Part shown: positions 37,108-43,370 of the stretch, piece after piece
Layout: each line of letters begins with the position of its first letter
Numbering within the stretch: the first letter of the stretch is position 1
DNA from: Thermoanaerobaculia bacterium
Lineage (GTDB): Bacteria; Acidobacteriota; Thermoanaerobaculia; Multivoradales; J023
DNA: 64,000 bases
Reading direction: 5' to 3'
Assembly: GCA_030431255.1 (NCBI GenBank)
Contig: JAUIJL010000003.1
Location: 186,001 to 250,000 of the forward strand
Program-made: the position numbers and the translations under genes
Notes under the pieces: model-generated
The model's database searches: none
Seen by the model: the letters and a program-made list of their open reading frames with translations, nothing else
What the model was told of the DNA's origin: nothing

Positions 37108-38763
37108 ATGTGGACTGCCTGCCGAGGTTTGAAGTTTTTGATCCTGCTGAGCCTAGCGCTTTGGAGCTTGGCGTGCGGCGGCGAGGCTCCTTCTGGCCCT
37201 GGAGCTGAGAGCACCTCCAAGGAGGCGTCGCGAGCCGGAAGCGGCGGGGTCCGTCTGACCATCGTCTCCGGCTCGGAGAATAAGAGCCTGGAGCCTTTGG
37301 TGGTCGAATACGGCCGTCAGGTCGGCGCCGACATCGAAGTGCGCTACCAAGGCAGCGTCGATATCTCCCTGGCGCTCGAAAACGGTAGGAATGCAGATTT
37401 CGATGCGGTGTGGCCGGCGAACTCCCTGTGGTTGGTGCTCGGCGATCGGCACAAGGTCGTGAAGCACGAGAAGAGCATCATGCGTTCCCCGGTGGTCTTC
37501 GGGGTCAAGAAGTCCGTGGCCGAATCCTTGGGCTGGGTCGACAAGTCGGATTTGCGGGTCAACGACATTTTGGCCGCGGCGGAAGCCGGCAAGCTCCGAT
37601 TCGCCATGACCTCCGCGACCCAAAGCAACTCCGGAGCCTCTGCCTATTTCGGTTTCCTCTCGGCCATGGCCGGCAGCCCCGACGTGTTGTCGATCGAGCA
37701 CCTTGAGGATAAAGAGGTTCGCGATCAGGTTCGACGTCTGCTCAAGACCGTAGACCGTTCCTCCGGCAGCTCGGGGTGGTTGCGGGATTTGGTCATTCAG
37801 TCCTACGATCGATTCGATGCCATGGTCAACTACGAAGCCTTGGTGATCGAGGCGAATCAGGACTTGGAATCCCGTGGTCTGGAGCCTTTTTACGCCATCT
37901 ACCCAATCGACGGCATGACCATCGCCGACTCCCCGTTGGCCTACGTCGACAAGGGAAGCAAGCGCAAAGAGGAGCTCTTCCTCGGGCTCCAAGAGCATCT
38001 CTTATCCCCAACGGTCCAAGCCAGCTTAGGGGCCTTCGGTCGTCGGACGGGCCTCTTGGGTTTGGATGCCGGGTCCATGGATCGCACCGTCTTCCGGAGT
38101 GATTGGGGAATCTCGCCGGAGCGGGTGATTTCTCCCATTCCCGTGCCGGAGGAATCCGTGGTGCGGGCCGCCCTCGAGCTTTATCAAACCGCTTTGCGCA
38201 AACCGTCGTTGACGGCCTATGTATTGGACTACTCCGGATCCATGCGAGGGGACGGCATCGCCCACCTCAAGACGGCCATGGGCACCTTACTCGACAAAGA
38301 GGTGGCTCAACGATACTGGTTACAGCCTTCGCAAGACGATGTCCACATCATCATCCCTTTCGATGGGGCTCCCCGGGCGGTGTGGCAGGCAGAGGGGGCC
38401 GACTCCGCGGACTTGCGTGTGTTGTTGAACAAGATTCGCAGCGCGGAGGCCGGCGGCGGCACCGACATCTACGAGGCCGTCGGCGAGGCGGTTGAGCAAA
38501 TCGGTCGGTACGAAAACCGGTTGGCCGACTTCTTCCCAGCCATCATTCTGATGTCGGACGGCAAGTCCAAGGGTAGCTTGGAGCAGCTCGAAACCCAATT
38601 CCGCACGTCGAGCTTCGCCTACGACGTGCCGATTTTTTCCATCGCTTTCGGCAAAGCGGACGAAAGCCAGCTCGAGGCCTTGGCGGATCTGACTTCTGGC
38701 CGTGCCTTTGACGGCAAGAAAGACTTGGTCAAGGCATTTCGAGCCGCGAAGGGCTACAACTGA
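37108..38763 (+). CDS. Lipoprotein fusing a solute-binding domain to a VWA domain
   Basis: 551 aa. The lipobox LWSLAC lies near residue 20, then an extracellular solute-binding-like domain (about 45-375: DFDAVWPANSLWLVLG, SATQSNSGAS and YPIDGMTIAD). A VWA domain (about 380-550) has MIDAS LDYSGSM and ILMSDGKS. SBP-VWA proteins of this type occur in TelA/XpaC-type stress clusters and are thought to sense ligand at the outer face of the membrane and signal by protein contact. The frame starts at 36991, but ATG 37108 with GGAGG 9 nt upstream directly begins a lipoprotein signal. It is first of five same-strand genes. Confidence 0.87.
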   Translation: MWTACRGLKFLILLSLALWSLACGGEAPSGPGAESTSKEASRAGSGGVRLTIVSGSENKSLEPLVVEYGRQVGADIEVRYQGSVDISLALENGRNADFDAVWPANSLWLVLGDRHKVVKHEKSIMRSPVVFGVKKSVAESLGWVDKSDLRVNDILAAAEAGKLRFAMTSATQSNSGASAYFGFLSAMAGSPDVLSIEHLEDKEVRDQVRRLLKTVDRSSGSSGWLRDLVIQSYDRFDAMVNYEALVIEANQDLESRGLEPFYAIYPIDGMTIADSPLAYVDKGSKRKEELFLGLQEHLLSPTVQASLGAFGRRTGLLGLDAGSMDRTVFRSDWGISPERVISPIPVPEESVVRAALELYQTALRKPSLTAYVLDYSGSMRGDGIAHLKTAMGTLLDKEVAQRYWLQPSQDDVHIIIPFDGAPRAVWQAEGADSADLRVLLNKIRSAEAGGGTDIYEAVGEAVEQIGRYENRLADFFPAIILMSDGKSKGSLEQLETQFRTSSFAYDVPIFSIAFGKADESQLEALADLTSGRAFDGKKDLVKAFRAAKGYN

Positions 38764-38782
38764 TGAGGAGCGTTCGCCGAGT

Positions 38783-39415
38783 ATGAGACCGATCGTACGC
38801 GAGCTGATCGCGGGCACTGCCGCCAGCGCGTTTTTTCTCGCTCTTCTGCCCCAAGGAATTCTCGGATTCTTGCCCTTGCTCGGTCTGGCGGGCGTGGTCT
38901 ACCTCGGGGCTCGGTTGATGCTGCCCGCGCGCTCGGAGCGGGCTGAGCCGTCGTCCGTCGAGCCACCGTCCTTGATCGAGAAGGTATCGGCGGCGGCCCG
39001 ACGATTCACCGATTTATCGACCGTGGTGTCGGGCAAAGAAGCTGCCGCAAATCTGCGCCGGGTCGCGCGGGCGGTCCAGAATTTGGCCAATCAATTCGAG
39101 CGCGAGCCGGAGACGTTGCCGGTCGCCGCGGAGCTTTTGGGTCTGCACATTCCCAGCGCCCTGAGCTTGGCGGAACGCCATGTTTCGTTGGCGGGTCAAC
39201 CCCATCTCGATGCCTCGGCTCGTCAGGAGCTGGAAGAATCCGAGCGCACCATCGGGTTGGTGGCCGACGCATTTGAAGCGCAATATGCGCGTCTATTGGA
39301 GCAGGACGTGAGGGAGCTCAGGGTCGACCGCCTGGTCTTCGAGGAATTGCTACGACTGGACGACCGTCCGGGTCTGATGGGATCCGAGACGGTGGATGAG
39401 AAGGAACGATCATGA
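38783..39415 (+). CDS. XpaC-like membrane protein
   Basis: 210 aa: two closely spaced N-terminal membrane helices (about 8-24 and 30-47) followed by a long, charged alpha-helical cytosolic domain (about 60-210). This layout matches the XpaC family (5-bromo-4-chloroindolyl-phosphate hydrolysis protein), which is usually linked to TelA and VWA proteins. I recognise it from topology and genomic company rather than from a diagnostic motif. ATG 38783 is the probable start; upstream in-frame residues would overlap the SBP-VWA gene. The last four bases overlap the next gene (ATGA). Confidence 0.6.
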   Translation: MRPIVRELIAGTAASAFFLALLPQGILGFLPLLGLAGVVYLGARLMLPARSERAEPSSVEPPSLIEKVSAAARRFTDLSTVVSGKEAAANLRRVARAVQNLANQFEREPETLPVAAELLGLHIPSALSLAERHVSLAGQPHLDASARQELEESERTIGLVADAFEAQYARLLEQDVRELRVDRLVFEELLRLDDRPGLMGSETVDEKERS

Positions 39416-40521
39416 ATTGGAAGCCGTTTGCGGGACTTTTACTTCTGGCAGCCGTCGCCGGTGCCGTCTACTTTTTTCAAGGTACCGAGCAAGGATCGGC
39501 GGGTCCGAAAGGAGCTGACGGCAAGGTCGAGGCCTCTGAGCGAATCGAGGTCCCCTGTTACGTCGGCGGGGAGAAATCCCGCTATTTGAAGAATCCTCGA
39601 GTTCAGGAAATTCTCGCCGAAAAATACGGCCTGGTGTTGAAGGCGACCAAGGCCGGCTCGATCGAGATGGTCACCACTTTGCCGGTGGAGCAGATGAGCT
39701 GCTTGTGGCCGTCCAATCAGGTCGCAGTGGAGCTCTACCGGGGTCGCAGCGGCGTGCCGCCGGCCTTGGCCCAGGAGACGATTTTCAATAGCCCGATCGT
39801 GCTTTATACGTGGGATGTGGTCGCTGAGGCCCTGGCCCAAGAAGGGTTGGTGGAGAGCCGCGACGGCGTGCAGTTTTTGACCGGATTCGATGTGCTCGTG
39901 GGGCACCTCGAGTCCGGAACGTCTTGGCAGGAAATCGGCCTTCCTCAGCTTTTCGGCAAGATCAAGATCTTCTCGACCGATCCACGCAAATCCAACTCCG
40001 GCAACATGTTTTCCGGCCTCATGGCAAATATGCTGAACGGTGGAGACGTAGTGGGCCCGGAAGCGTTGGAGACGGTGCTTCCGAAGCTCAAGAGTTATTT
40101 TGAGCGCATGGGTTATATGGAAAGCAGCAGTGGAGACATCTTTGAGAATTTCTTGAAAACCGGGGTCGGTGCGAAACCGATCGTGGTCGGCTACGAGAAT
40201 CAGCTGATCGAGTTCGCGATCGAAAACCAACGCCATCTTGAAATGCTGAGGCAGCGGATCCGTACGCTTTACCCGGTGCCCACGGTGTGGAGCTCGCACC
40301 CGCTGATGGCCCTGGACTCAAAGGGAAAGCGTTTAATCGAAGCCTTTGAGGATCCCGAGCTCCAGCAGCTGGCTTGGACGCAGCACGGATTCAGATCCGG
40401 CCTGATGGGCGCCCAAAACGATCCCGCGGACCTGCCGGTGACGGGCCTGCCCGCATCGATCGAGGCGGTGGTCCCCATGCCCACTGCCGAAGCCATGGGG
40501 CGAATCATCGACGGCTTGTGA
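39412..40521 (+). CDS. Membrane-anchored solute-binding-like protein
   Basis: 369 aa. A single N-terminal membrane anchor (about 6-22) is followed by a Gly-rich linker and a type 2 periplasmic-binding-like domain (about 45-365). It shares elements with the SBP part of the first gene (SCLWPSNQVAVELYRG compared with DAVWPANSLWLVLG; FSTDPRKSNSGNMFSG compared with SATQSNSGASAYFG). It is thus a paralogous sensor without a VWA domain. There is no ABC permease or ATPase gene nearby, so it probably senses rather than imports. It is translationally coupled to the XpaC-like gene. Confidence 0.8.
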   Translation: MNWKPFAGLLLLAAVAGAVYFFQGTEQGSAGPKGADGKVEASERIEVPCYVGGEKSRYLKNPRVQEILAEKYGLVLKATKAGSIEMVTTLPVEQMSCLWPSNQVAVELYRGRSGVPPALAQETIFNSPIVLYTWDVVAEALAQEGLVESRDGVQFLTGFDVLVGHLESGTSWQEIGLPQLFGKIKIFSTDPRKSNSGNMFSGLMANMLNGGDVVGPEALETVLPKLKSYFERMGYMESSSGDIFENFLKTGVGAKPIVVGYENQLIEFAIENQRHLEMLRQRIRTLYPVPTVWSSHPLMALDSKGKRLIEAFEDPELQQLAWTQHGFRSGLMGAQNDPADLPVTGLPASIEAVVPMPTAEAMGRIIDGL

Positions 40522-40654
40522 TCGTAGCTTCGGCGAGAGATTCGGTCGGTCGGAAGGCCGGCATATCGGCAGCGAAGGGATCGGGTTACAATGCCGATGC
40601 CGACTCATGAATTAGGAAATACGCTCAGTGGACCGCGTGTGAAGGAGAGACGCG

Positions 40655-41494
40655 ATGTTTGGTGCGATAGGACGATGGTTGAAGGCTTTGGCGTACTTGG
40701 TAACCGGTCAGGTGGATTCCGCCCGACGGACCTTGGATACGAATCCCCATGTGATGCGGGCGAAATACGACGAGATCATTCGTGAAAAGACCGCTCGAAT
40801 CCATCAATACAAGCAGGCTGTGGCGCAGATCATTGCCCAAGAGCAGCAGAAGATCAGCAAGATTCGAGGGCTCGGCGAGGAGCTCGAGCGGCTCGAGAAG
40901 CTGAAAGCCGGCGCTTTGGCCAAGGCCAAGCAGGTCACGGAGAAGCTCAAAGCCGAAGGCAAGGGGCCCGAGCAGATCAAGGCCGACGAGGATTACAAGC
41001 GCTGCCTGGCCGCGTACAACGACTTCAACTCTACCTTGCAGGAAAAATCCGCGCGGGTGGAGGAGCTGGAGCAAGACGTCGAGGGCTACCGCAAGACCAT
41101 CACCGACCACAAAGTGCAGCTCGAAGGTTTGCGCCGCGAGCTCGACAAGGTGAAATCCGAGTCGTCGGAAGCGGTGGCGGACATGATCACCGCCCAACAA
41201 GAGAAAGAAATCGCCGATGCCCTCTCGGGCATTGCCCAGGACGGCTCCGAGGAGGAGCTCAACCGTTTGCGCAATTTGCGTCAAGAGGTCCGAGCCGAGG
41301 TCCAGATCTCGAAGGAGCTGGCGGGTACGGACCACAAGCGCACCGAAGAGGAATTCCTGGAATACGCCCGAACCACGGAATCCGCCAGCGAGTTCGATGC
41401 GCTGATCGGGCTTGCGGAATCGGTCGATACGGGTGCGTCCGAAAAGACCGCCTCCGAAAAGACCGCTTCGGAAAAGGCCGGTCTGCCGGAATGA
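40655..41494 (+). CDS. PspA/IM30 (ESCRT-III-like) coiled-coil protein
   Basis: 279 aa, nearly all alpha-helical with a long coiled coil (about 35-205). The N-terminal amphipathic helix (MFGAIGRWLKALAYLV) fits membrane binding by PspA family members, which form ESCRT-III-like polymers that mend or remodel the inner membrane. The C-terminal tail carries a three-copy SEKTA repeat and looks disordered. ATG 40655 has AAGGAGAG upstream. A TACAAT hexamer (40587-40592) in the 133-bp gap could be an internal promoter. The stop overlaps the 19-codon bridging ORF (ATGA) that leads to the AAA+ gene. Confidence 0.87.
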   Translation: MFGAIGRWLKALAYLVTGQVDSARRTLDTNPHVMRAKYDEIIREKTARIHQYKQAVAQIIAQEQQKISKIRGLGEELERLEKLKAGALAKAKQVTEKLKAEGKGPEQIKADEDYKRCLAAYNDFNSTLQEKSARVEELEQDVEGYRKTITDHKVQLEGLRRELDKVKSESSEAVADMITAQQEKEIADALSGIAQDGSEEELNRLRNLRQEVRAEVQISKELAGTDHKRTEEEFLEYARTTESASEFDALIGLAESVDTGASEKTASEKTASEKAGLPE

Positions 41495-41544
41495 TCCGTG
41501 CCGGAATGATCCGTGCCGGAATGATCAGCGCCGGAATGATCAGT
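41438..41544 (+). repeat. Two adjacent 15-bp minisatellites spanning the pspA-AAA junction
   Basis: Three copies of TCCGAAAAGACCGCC-like units (41438-41482) encode SEKTA repeats in the PspA tail. Four copies of GCCGGAATGATCCGT-like units (41485-41544) follow, spanning the pspA stop. Both have a 15-bp period. Each unit of the second array contains ATGA. Confidence 0.85.
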
Positions 41545-41550
41545 CGGTGA
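41491..41550 (+). CDS. 19-aa bridging ORF coupling pspA to the AAA+ gene
   Basis: The reading frame begins at the ATGA that overlaps the pspA stop (41491-41494), encodes MIRAG-MIRAG-MISAG-MISR and stops at TGA 41548-41550, overlapping the GTG start of the AAA+ gene (41547). Terminating pspA ribosomes could restart here and be delivered to the AAA+ start, which has no clear ribosome site. The peptide itself may have no function. It was generated by the 15-bp repeats. Confidence 0.4.
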   Translation: MIRAGMIRAGMISAGMISR

Positions 41551-43370
41551 GCCGGGCTCTCGACTACGCCTTCTTGGGGGTCGCCGGACGGGTTCTCAAC
41601 TCGGGCCAAGCCAGGTCCTTGTTGATGTCCGGCGCCCTTCACGACCTCTTTCGAGTCGAAGCACCGGAGGGGTCCCAATGGGTTCCCTTGGTGGACTTCC
41701 TACGCCATCACTGGACCGTGCCCGGCAAAGTGCTGCTGGTGTACGAGCTGAATGGGCCGATTCGCTTCGCCTCCGACAAGGATCGGGAGACCCTGAAAGA
41801 GGCGTGGATCCACTGGCGGACGGGCGTGGATGGCGACACCCTGGCCATCCGTCGCATGCTCGACGGCAAGCGATTCGACCAAGGGGTCAAACAACTCGAG
41901 TCGACCTTCGACCAGAATCTGCAGAATGCCATCGGCAATCCGACCGTGGCCTTCGAGCTGTTGCGTCAGCTCTGCTCTTGCTCCCGCTTTCGCTCCGAGG
42001 ACGGTCGAGCGGCTCTCGACCAAGATCTGCTGATTTTGATCGAGGGGGCGGACTTGGCTTTGCCCGAGGGGCAGGTGACGTCCCTTTCGGACGCCGATCG
42101 TCACCGGCTGGCGATTTGCACGGATTGGTTCTCGGACCCGGGATTTCTCGATGGCCGAGATGCGGTGGTGCTGTTGGCGGAATCCCGCAGCTTGGTCAAT
42201 CATCGGATCGCCCGGCTGCCGCAGGTTCTCGAAGTGGAGATTCCGGCTCCCGATTTGGATCAGCGACGGGCCTTGATCGAGGAATATGTCGCGGATTTTC
42301 CGGATCTCGCCCTCGGGCAATCCGTGGAAGGCTTGTCGGAGCTGACCGCCGGGCTGTCGATCCACGCGCTCTTGCAGATGCTCAAGGGGGCCGCCCACGG
42401 AAATCAGGAGCTGAATCGGGCGGAGGTGGTCTCGAAGGTGGAGATCTTCGTGCAATCCCAGCTCGGCGAGGACGTGATCGAGATCAAGAAACCCTCCCAC
42501 CGCCTCGAGGATGTGGTGGGCTTTACCGATCTCAAGGCTTTTTTGCGCAGCGAGCTGATTCCTCGATTCCAAGATTCCGGCGGTGGCGCCCTGCCCGGCG
42601 CCGCGGTGGCCGGGCCGATCGGCGGTGGCAAGACCTTTATCTTCGAGGCCGTGGCCTCGGAGCTCGACATGGTCGTGGTGGTGCTCAAGAATTTGAGAAG
42701 CCAGTGGTTCGGACAAACCGACGTCATCTTCGAGCGGCTGCGGCGGGCGTTGCAGGCGCTCTCGAAGGTGGTCATCTTCGTCGACGAGGCGGACACCCAA
42801 TTCGGCGGCATCGGCCCGGGAGCCCACGCCACCGAGCGTAGGCTGACCGGAAAAATTCAGCAGATGATGTCGGATCCGGCCTTGCGTGGCAGGGTCTTTT
42901 GGCTGTTGATGACCGCTCGCATTCACCACCTTTCCCCGGATATCCGCCGGCCGGGCCGAGTCGGGGATTTGATCATTCCCGTCTTGGACCCCACCGGCGA
43001 CGATCGCAGAGCTTTTCTAATTTGGGTCCTCGGCGCCGTGCTCAGCGAGTCGCCGACCGACGACGAGATCTTCCGACTGGACCAAGTCACCAAGGGATAC
43101 TCGGCGGCGGCCTTCGCTGCATTGCGTGGTCAGCTGAAGGCGGCGGCTCGACGGCGAGAGCCGGGAGAGGATTTCGACATTGAGGCGGTGCTGGAGATCG
43201 CCGGCGACCTGATCCCGCCCGCGATTGGTGAGACCCGTCGCTACCAGACCCTTCAGGCGTTGCTCAACTGCACCCGTCGGCGACTGTTGCCGGATCCGGA
43301 AATGGACCTGGCCCAGCGCGAGGTCTGGAGCCGCGAGATTCAACAGCTCGAAGCCAAGGGCATCGGCTGA
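41547..43370 (+). CDS. Classic AAA+ ATPase with a degenerate N-terminal AAA domain (Ycf46/Vps4-like)
   Basis: 607 aa. The N-terminal half (about 1-310) has AAA-like features without a Walker A: LLILIEGADLA resembles a Walker B, VVLLAES a sensor, and EIPAPDLDQRRALI a small-domain start. The second domain (about 325-560) is complete: Walker A GPIGGGKT at about 356, a WFG pore-loop motif, Walker B VVIFVDEAD at about 408-416 and the IRRPGRVG arginine finger. This is the classic AAA clade (FtsH, Vps4, Ycf46). Next to a PspA/ESCRT-III protein it would be the candidate remodelling ATPase. The start is GTG 41547, overlapping the bridging ORF stop; the track-extended start at 41412 lies inside pspA. 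Confidence 0.88.
   Translation: MSRALDYAFLGVAGRVLNSGQARSLLMSGALHDLFRVEAPEGSQWVPLVDFLRHHWTVPGKVLLVYELNGPIRFASDKDRETLKEAWIHWRTGVDGDTLAIRRMLDGKRFDQGVKQLESTFDQNLQNAIGNPTVAFELLRQLCSCSRFRSEDGRAALDQDLLILIEGADLALPEGQVTSLSDADRHRLAICTDWFSDPGFLDGRDAVVLLAESRSLVNHRIARLPQVLEVEIPAPDLDQRRALIEEYVADFPDLALGQSVEGLSELTAGLSIHALLQMLKGAAHGNQELNRAEVVSKVEIFVQSQLGEDVIEIKKPSHRLEDVVGFTDLKAFLRSELIPRFQDSGGGALPGAAVAGPIGGGKTFIFEAVASELDMVVVVLKNLRSQWFGQTDVIFERLRRALQALSKVVIFVDEADTQFGGIGPGAHATERRLTGKIQQMMSDPALRGRVFWLLMTARIHHLSPDIRRPGRVGDLIIPVLDPTGDDRRAFLIWVLGAVLSESPTDDEIFRLDQVTKGYSAAAFAALRGQLKAAARRREPGEDFDIEAVLEIAGDLIPPAIGETRRYQTLQALLNCTRRRLLPDPEMDLAQREVWSREIQQLEAKGIG

Follow-up and report, generated by a model that had tools for sequence, protein, structure and literature searches.

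A five-gene locus in a Thermoanaerobaculia-type Acidobacteriota genome probably joins a TelA-type envelope sensor to a dedicated ESCRT-III-like pair, consisting of a PspA-family protein and a tandem AAA+ ATPase, which takes the place of TelA. The locus lies at positions 37108-43370 of the window, the 64,000-nucleotide stretch analyzed here (contig JAUIJL010000003.1 of GenBank assembly GCA_030431255.1), and its source genome (G000) is 10.2 Mb in size and 98.8% complete. Computational comparison resolves the locus into two modules, genes 1-3 and genes 4-5, which also occur separately. A preliminary description of the same DNA had proposed five same-strand genes with the domains given below, and Pfam, profile and fold comparisons support these for each gene.

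37108..38763, + strand: gene 1, a putative lipoprotein of 551 aa with solute-binding protein (SBP) and VWA domains (Pfam SBP_bac_11 and VWA)
38783..39415, + strand: gene 2, an XpaC-family protein (PF10112), 210 aa from ATG (Pfam, hydropathy, profile match)
39412..40521, + strand: gene 3, a second SBP-like protein, 369 aa (identity to the SBP of XpaC/TelA loci)
40655..41494, + strand: gene 4, a predicted PspA-family protein of the ESCRT-III superfamily, 279 aa (hhalign, Foldseek, orthologs)
41547..43370, + strand: gene 5, a tandem AAA+ ATPase, 607 aa from GTG (Pfam, model, alignment)
41484..41541, + strand: about four copies of a 15-bp repeat, TGCCGGAATGATCCG (Tandem Repeats Finder and sequence)

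The association of genes 1-3 with TelA is seen in other genomes. Acidobacteria isolate Zod_Metabat.850 (G163; loci L080 and L178) has the order SBP-VWA, XpaC, SBP, TelA at L178, where the TelA protein matches PF05816 at 9e-115 and the other products are 50% identical to gene 1, 50% to gene 3 and ~25% to gene 2; its member of the PspA-type AAA family is on a different contig. Plasmids of Sphaerotilus and Variovorax carry an SBP, TelA, an SBP-VWA and an XpaC-like protein with two transmembrane helices (2-TM), and together with the G163 operon they bear out the earlier suggestion that XpaC and VWA proteins are tied to TelA stress systems. From these gene orders, genes 1-3 appear to be a TelA-partner module. 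In the source genome, a search for TelA (PF05816) returned zero matches. As genes 1-3 are accompanied by TelA elsewhere and the source genome lacks it, the simplest reading is that the PspA-AAA pair occupies the place of TelA behind the sensor in the window. In Listeria, tolerance of nisin and of tellurite has been tied to XpaC and TelA (PMC12791056), consistent with a part for these proteins in envelope stress. Two further genomes carry parts of the module: in G117, SBP-VWA and XpaC-SBP sit at two different contig ends and the genome lacks TelA, and G026 has SBP-VWA and SBP before a transmembrane (TM) coiled-coil protein. A weak CdvA-like coiled-coil match (0.005) came from a TM coiled-coil protein (L169, 389-1213) whose gene adjoins one for an SBP-VWA.

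The individual sequences of genes 1-3 point to the same relatives. Gene 1 matches SBP_bac_11 (8.9e-13) and VWA (5e-9) in Pfam, retains an intact metal-ion-dependent adhesion site (MIDAS) motif in its VWA domain (residues DYSGS/T/D), and is 50-52% identical to its SBP-VWA counterparts in a TelA operon and in G117; against solved structures, its family matches ModA at ~3e-6. Gene 2 matches PF10112 (8.4e-16) and has two N-terminal TM helices in a hydropathy scan, followed by a cytosolic helical domain. In profile comparison, the XpaC set matched the 2-TM proteins of the plasmid TelA operons at 92.5% over 178 columns; against the 2-TM protein of the widespread PspA-AAA operon described below, one test gave 29% and another 90% over only 38 columns. 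Gene 3 had no Pfam match. It has one N-terminal TM segment or anchor and shares 46-50% identity with the SBP found at XpaC/TelA loci, and its family matches the solved sulfate-binding protein SubI at 2.2e-4. A second, lone XpaC-family gene is present in the source genome (L065, G000:C15:598392-599030), 29% identical to gene 2, with TelA, PspA and SBP all absent beside it.

Gene 4 is best assigned, by profile and structure prediction, to the PspA/Vipp1 branch of the ESCRT-III superfamily. Its orthologs are spread over many phyla at 34-64% identity, and an alignment of 46 gene 4 sequences matched 15 PspA sequences from PF04012 loci at 95.3% over 212 columns in hhalign, while control families from the same operons (TelA, 2-TM and TM coiled-coil) reached ≤2% against the same PspA set. 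With only five classical stand-alone PspA sequences as the target, the probability was 51%. The AlphaFold model has helices at residues 3-29, 31-100, 112-195 and 198-250 in the alpha0 plus alpha1-alpha5 layout, with an amphipathic N-terminal helix and a disordered tail ending in LPE. In a Foldseek search of the PDB, the top seven matches to this model were Vipp1/PspA structures over ~250 columns (E 1.3e-3 to 1.2e-2), which, with the profile match, upholds the earlier identification of a PspA of ESCRT-III type.

The extreme C-terminus of this PspA family reads [LI]P[EL] in 45 of the 46 aligned rows. With the rows aligned on this motif, the three column entropies are 0.6, 0.0 and 0.6 bits, compared with ~3 bits in the preceding linker, so that the tail has the character of a short linear motif and is a candidate tag for the ATPase. 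The PspA proteins of related ABC/TM-coiled-coil operons (L194-L212, L046, L052) carry another conserved tail, K/R-D/E-MGP..., and this difference suggests one tail motif per ATPase subfamily.

Gene 5 (Pfam AAA, 5.3e-14) encodes two AAA domains, and its full-length model (predicted local distance difference test score 89) aligns across both rings of AFG2, Rix7 and p97. Domain 1 lacks Walker A and has a conserved YELNGPIRF in its position; the two-ring alignment and the missing motif confirm the inactive first AAA domain proposed earlier. Domain 2 is intact, with GPIGGGKT (Walker A), VDEAD (Walker B), a WFG pore loop and an RRPGR finger region, and its pore loop, Walker and finger residues are invariant or nearly so across 53 ATPases. 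The initial likening of this protein to Vps4 stands only in part. The WFG pore loop and RRPGR region agree, and the active-domain model superposes on Vps4 (Z 20.9, 3.5 Å over 266 residues), but in sequence comparison with solved structures Cdc48/VCP comes first (98 bits), ahead of archaeal chains titled Vps4 (4d82, 4d80; 52 bits). No MIT domain was found in the ATPase model, which from residue 49 on consists of the two AAA domains; the part before residue 49 is disordered and precedes the likely start. The protein is a tandem AAA and not a single Vps4-type cassette.

The partnership of genes 4 and 5 was followed across genomes. A contig scan yielded 80 ATPase loci at 50-67% identity from Acidobacteriota, Verrucomicrobiota, Planctomycetota, Hydrogenedentota, Sumerlaeota, Poribacteria, and deltaproteobacterial and other metagenome-assembled genomes (MAGs), and these form, with five loci from viral contigs and the window, a set of 86. 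PspA lies within the fetched stretch at 49 of the 86 loci, directly adjacent to the ATPase at 16, and in 18 genomes whose ATPase locus showed no PspA, a genome-wide search found one strong same-family PspA elsewhere in all 18. In a set of 246 genomes from the phylum of a Pirellula-type MAG, strong matches to the ATPase (E < 1e-230) and to PspA (E < 1e-100) are confined to one and the same set of eight genomes. One other genome of this set (G671) lacks PspA, and its ATPase is partial and broken. Six more have ATPases that are more distant (E 1e-60 to 1e-110); a distant PspA accompanies one of these. In addition, the PspA and ATPase distance matrices correlate (r = 0.82).

The pairing of PspA and ATPase is near-obligate, and the 18 unlinked genomes and the eight shared ones speak for the dedicated pair that had been suggested. 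As the ATPase family keeps such close company with PspA, these data argue against a general-factor role; the preliminary description had allowed for a general Ycf46-type factor found away from PspA, and genomes with an unlinked ATPase were found to hold PspA all the same. The two proteins very likely act together, and the ATPase probably acts on PspA. The ATPase was not found in any phage or plasmid record. IMG/VR contigs classed as viral (L154-L157) contain a large part of the PspA-AAA-ABC operon, in which additional genes precede the AAA gene, and are more likely host DNA than virus genes. In several phyla, the gene immediately downstream of the ATPase encodes a radical-SAM-like protein of ~340 aa with the cysteine motif CRWSQCTGC (L112, L078).

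Around this pair, several operon forms were found. The widespread form has the order SBP(NMT1)-OmpA, VWA, TM-SBP-OmpA, 2-TM helical protein, PspA, SBP, ABC permease, ABC ATPase, AAA, so that PspA is preceded here, too, by SBP, VWA and 2-TM proteins. In Poribacteria the pair is found with proteins whose sequences read as beta-propeller-like repeats, and at L149 with a YqiJ-like protein and a DUF3686 AAA. Because it joins ABC/SBP, beta-propeller and YqiJ/DUF3686 partners, the PspA-AAA pair would appear, from these gene neighborhoods, to be a core with exchangeable partners. Profile comparison of the window SBPs with the NMT1-like SBPs of the widespread operon gave no match, which places the window sensors in a different SBP class. 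At both L149 and L091, the pair is beside the YqiJ-like protein and a 700-aa protein, with the DUF3686 AAA of L149 being 1768 aa long; this layout merges two PspA contexts that Ravi et al. give as separate entries.

Taken as a TelA-type sensor joined to a PspA-AAA pair, the locus could work as follows. The two SBP domains, which are of the molybdate/sulfate-binding kind, would detect, outside the cell, a ligand that is anion-like or derived from the envelope, and the VWA protein, through its MIDAS, and the 2-TM XpaC protein would relay this state across the inner membrane. PspA would polymerize on, or coat, the stressed membrane, and the ATPase would grip the [LI]P[EL] tail and extract PspA subunits, leading to turnover of the coat.

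A number of results count against this reading. The exact five-gene set was found only in the source genome. A same-genus genome (G001) has XpaC, PspA and AAA in a row, and no homolog of the SBP-VWA or of the second SBP was found anywhere in it. The gap between genes 3 and 4 is 133 nt and marks the module boundary. As a single sequence, gene 4 scores 23.9 against PspA_IM30 (3.6e-5), below the gathering threshold of 33.9, and a rigid (VIA) realignment of its model is dominated by generic coiled coils, although that method is uninformative for a long bent coiled coil. The nominal co-occurrence probability for PspA and ATPase in the 246 genomes (P = 3e-15) assumes independent genomes and ignores their shared ancestry. 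The notion of the five genes as one conserved system did not survive these comparisons, and the co-occurrence on which it depended holds for PspA with its ATPase and is missing between genes 1-3 and genes 4-5. Since the joined order occurs in one genome only and G001 lacks the SBP genes, the first three genes may have no effect on genes 4-5, and we consider control of the pair by genes 1-3 to be at best an even call. As G001 keeps XpaC-PspA-AAA while both SBP genes are absent, the joint through XpaC seems, from gene order, to be the conserved part.

The locus could instead consist of two unrelated units that happen to abut, one being an SBP-VWA/XpaC/SBP operon without TelA and the other a PspA-AAA operon of its own. 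The 133-nt gap at the joint, the occurrence of either module without the other, and the separate contigs of the two modules in G163 all favor this view, which we nevertheless hold to be rather unlikely, given that XpaC directly precedes PspA-AAA in the same genus with a gap of 46 nt, that the genes immediately before PspA in the widespread operon likewise encode SBP, VWA and 2-TM proteins, and that in G026 the SBP-VWA and SBP precede a TM coiled-coil protein. A different division of labor, in which PspA regulates or anchors the ATPase and the real substrate is another membrane protein, would make gene 5 an unfoldase or assembly chaperone and not an ESCRT-like disassembler. There is precedent in Escherichia coli, where PspA binds the AAA+ protein PspF (literature cited in PMC8281802), PspA polymers have a slow intrinsic ATPase activity (PMC11746142), and both the sequence and the architecture of the ATPase are nearer to Cdc48/AFG2-type unfoldases than to Vps4. 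PspF, however, is an NtrC-type AAA and not a classic threading AAA, and a conserved C-terminal tag behind a flexible linker suits a substrate handle on PspA, so that we regard this arrangement as unlikely. Least probable of all is a role in solute uptake or scavenging, in which the SBPs would serve an ABC transporter from another locus and PspA-AAA would do no more than maintain the surrounding membrane. Many PspA-AAA operons of other phyla do include an ABC permease and ATPase, and a link to transport has been proposed by Ravi et al. (PMC11237479), but ABC genes are absent in and beside the window operon and are likewise lacking in the TelA-linked relatives of genes 1-3.

The reading of a TelA-type sensor joined to a PspA-AAA pair combines parts of several described systems. 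The closest is that of Ravi et al. (mSystems 2024, PMC11237479), who describe PspA together with a double-AAA protein, inactive in its N-terminal copy, as well as long ABC and PBPB-OmpA operon forms. The window shares with their system the PspA, the tandem AAA+ with a dead first domain, and SBPs in the operon, and the authors likewise propose ATP-dependent membrane remodeling. Unlike their long form, the five genes and their flanks contain no ABC ATPase, permease or OmpA domain; the window SBPs are SBP_bac_11/SubI-like and not NMT1-like, and a VWA domain fused to an SBP and a genuine XpaC are present, whereas VWA, XpaC and TelA go unmentioned in their main text. The preliminary description knew of no described system with this exact gene set, and this needs to be divided: the PspA and double-AAA pair was already described by Ravi et al., and the five-gene set is found only here. 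In the open literature covered (subscription literature lay outside it), nothing beyond Ravi et al. and papers on ESCRT in general bore on the combination, and replacement of TelA by PspA-AAA, obligate pairing and the tail motif were not found described there, the supplement of Ravi et al. being outside this scope. The locus is a new combination of known parts.

With the XpaC-TelA (YaaN) operons, such as Listeria lmo1966-1967 and the SBP-VWA version in Sphaerotilus and Variovorax, the window shares an XpaC-family 2-TM protein, and with the set in Acidobacteriota relatives an SBP-VWA and a second SBP at 46-52% identity. Unlike these toxic-anion and lantibiotic resistance operons, it has PspA-AAA, with TelA missing from operon and genome. 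Like the archaeal and eukaryotic ESCRT-III/Vps4 systems (CdvB-CdvC), it has an ESCRT-III filament protein, a classic AAA with an aromatic pore loop, and a short C-terminal motif that is a candidate recruitment signal; unlike them, its ATPase is a Cdc48/AFG2-type tandem AAA with no MIT domain in the model, no MIT-interacting motif is recognizable, and the filament protein belongs to the PspA branch and not to the Snf7 branch. The classical Psp responses (PspFABC, LiaIH, ClgR-PspAMN) also use PspA as an effector of membrane stress, but genes for PspF, PspB, PspC, Toastrack and two-component systems are absent among the scanned flanking genes of the window. A second PspA of the source genome, of 197 aa (L069, G000:C35:668950-671620), is flanked on one side by a VWA protein whose N-terminus contains a hydrophobic helix and on the other by a multi-TM protein, another VWA-PspA association, and is divergent from a histidine kinase/response regulator pair. 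This VWA protein was considered as a paralog of the SBP-VWA and rejected, only the VWA domain being in common.

Liu et al. in 2021 (PMC8281802) left open the question of a Vps4-like motor for bacterial ESCRT-III proteins. A 2024 structural paper (PMC11746142) considers, among psp-linked AAA+ proteins, PspF alone and reports that remodeling does not require it, and a 2024 survey (PMC10936438) restricts paired ESCRT systems to archaea and eukaryotes. We tentatively suggest that bacteria may own a two-part ESCRT-III/ATPase engine, made of PspA with an [LI]P[EL] handle and its dedicated tandem AAA, served by interchangeable sensor modules, with TelA perhaps doing an equivalent membrane job where PspA-AAA is missing. 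The sensor modules of such an engine might, equally tentatively, include the SBP-OmpA/VWA/ABC, beta-propeller, YqiJ/DUF3686-AAA and TelA-type SBP-VWA/XpaC sets. Near-strict co-occurrence, a mutable tail motif and small proteins make a dedicated filament motor testable in this bacterial PspA/AAA pair. Because PspA-AAA apparently substitutes for TelA behind the same sensor, the replacement also hints at a role for TelA, namely membrane action in response to that sensor; to our knowledge, no mechanism is known for TelA.

Genes were called by codon-position GC, and the starts in the window were reassessed from sequence and ortholog lengths. The open reading frame (ORF) of gene 2 runs from GTG 38702, but the in-frame ATG at 38783, which leaves a 19-nt gap after gene 1, is probably the start. 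The gene 5 ORF opens at TTG 41412; an in-frame GTG at 41547 gives 607 aa and a 52-nt gap after gene 4, and is probably the true start because this length matches most orthologs (604-609 aa), the 45 extra N-terminal residues of the long ORF being disordered. The gaps from gene 1 to gene 5 are thus 19, -4, 133 and 52 nt, and of the two overlaps read earlier from ORF starts, only the 4 nt between genes 2 and 3 are firm, leaving the other doubtful. Upstream lies a divergent pair of wax-ester synthase and lipase-like genes, and downstream are genes for a tRNA-queuosine mannosyltransferase, an FKBP and a GGDEF protein; none of the flanking genes scanned is a psp, lia or ABC gene. Scans of the sequence for sigma-70 promoters and terminators scored no better than shuffles. 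Recent foreign insertion was rejected, as the third-position GC content of the five genes is near the window mean (all within ~1.5 standard deviations), and so was anti-phage defense, for which PADLOC matched only a coiled coil and a generic AAA.

Finally, the TGCCGGAATGATCCG array sits between the PspA stop codon and the likely AAA start, and its first copy contains the conserved LPE codons together with that stop. Positions 41438-41541 of the window hold two 15-bp tandem arrays in all, one inside the PspA tail (ASEKT repeats) and the other across the PspA stop and spacer.

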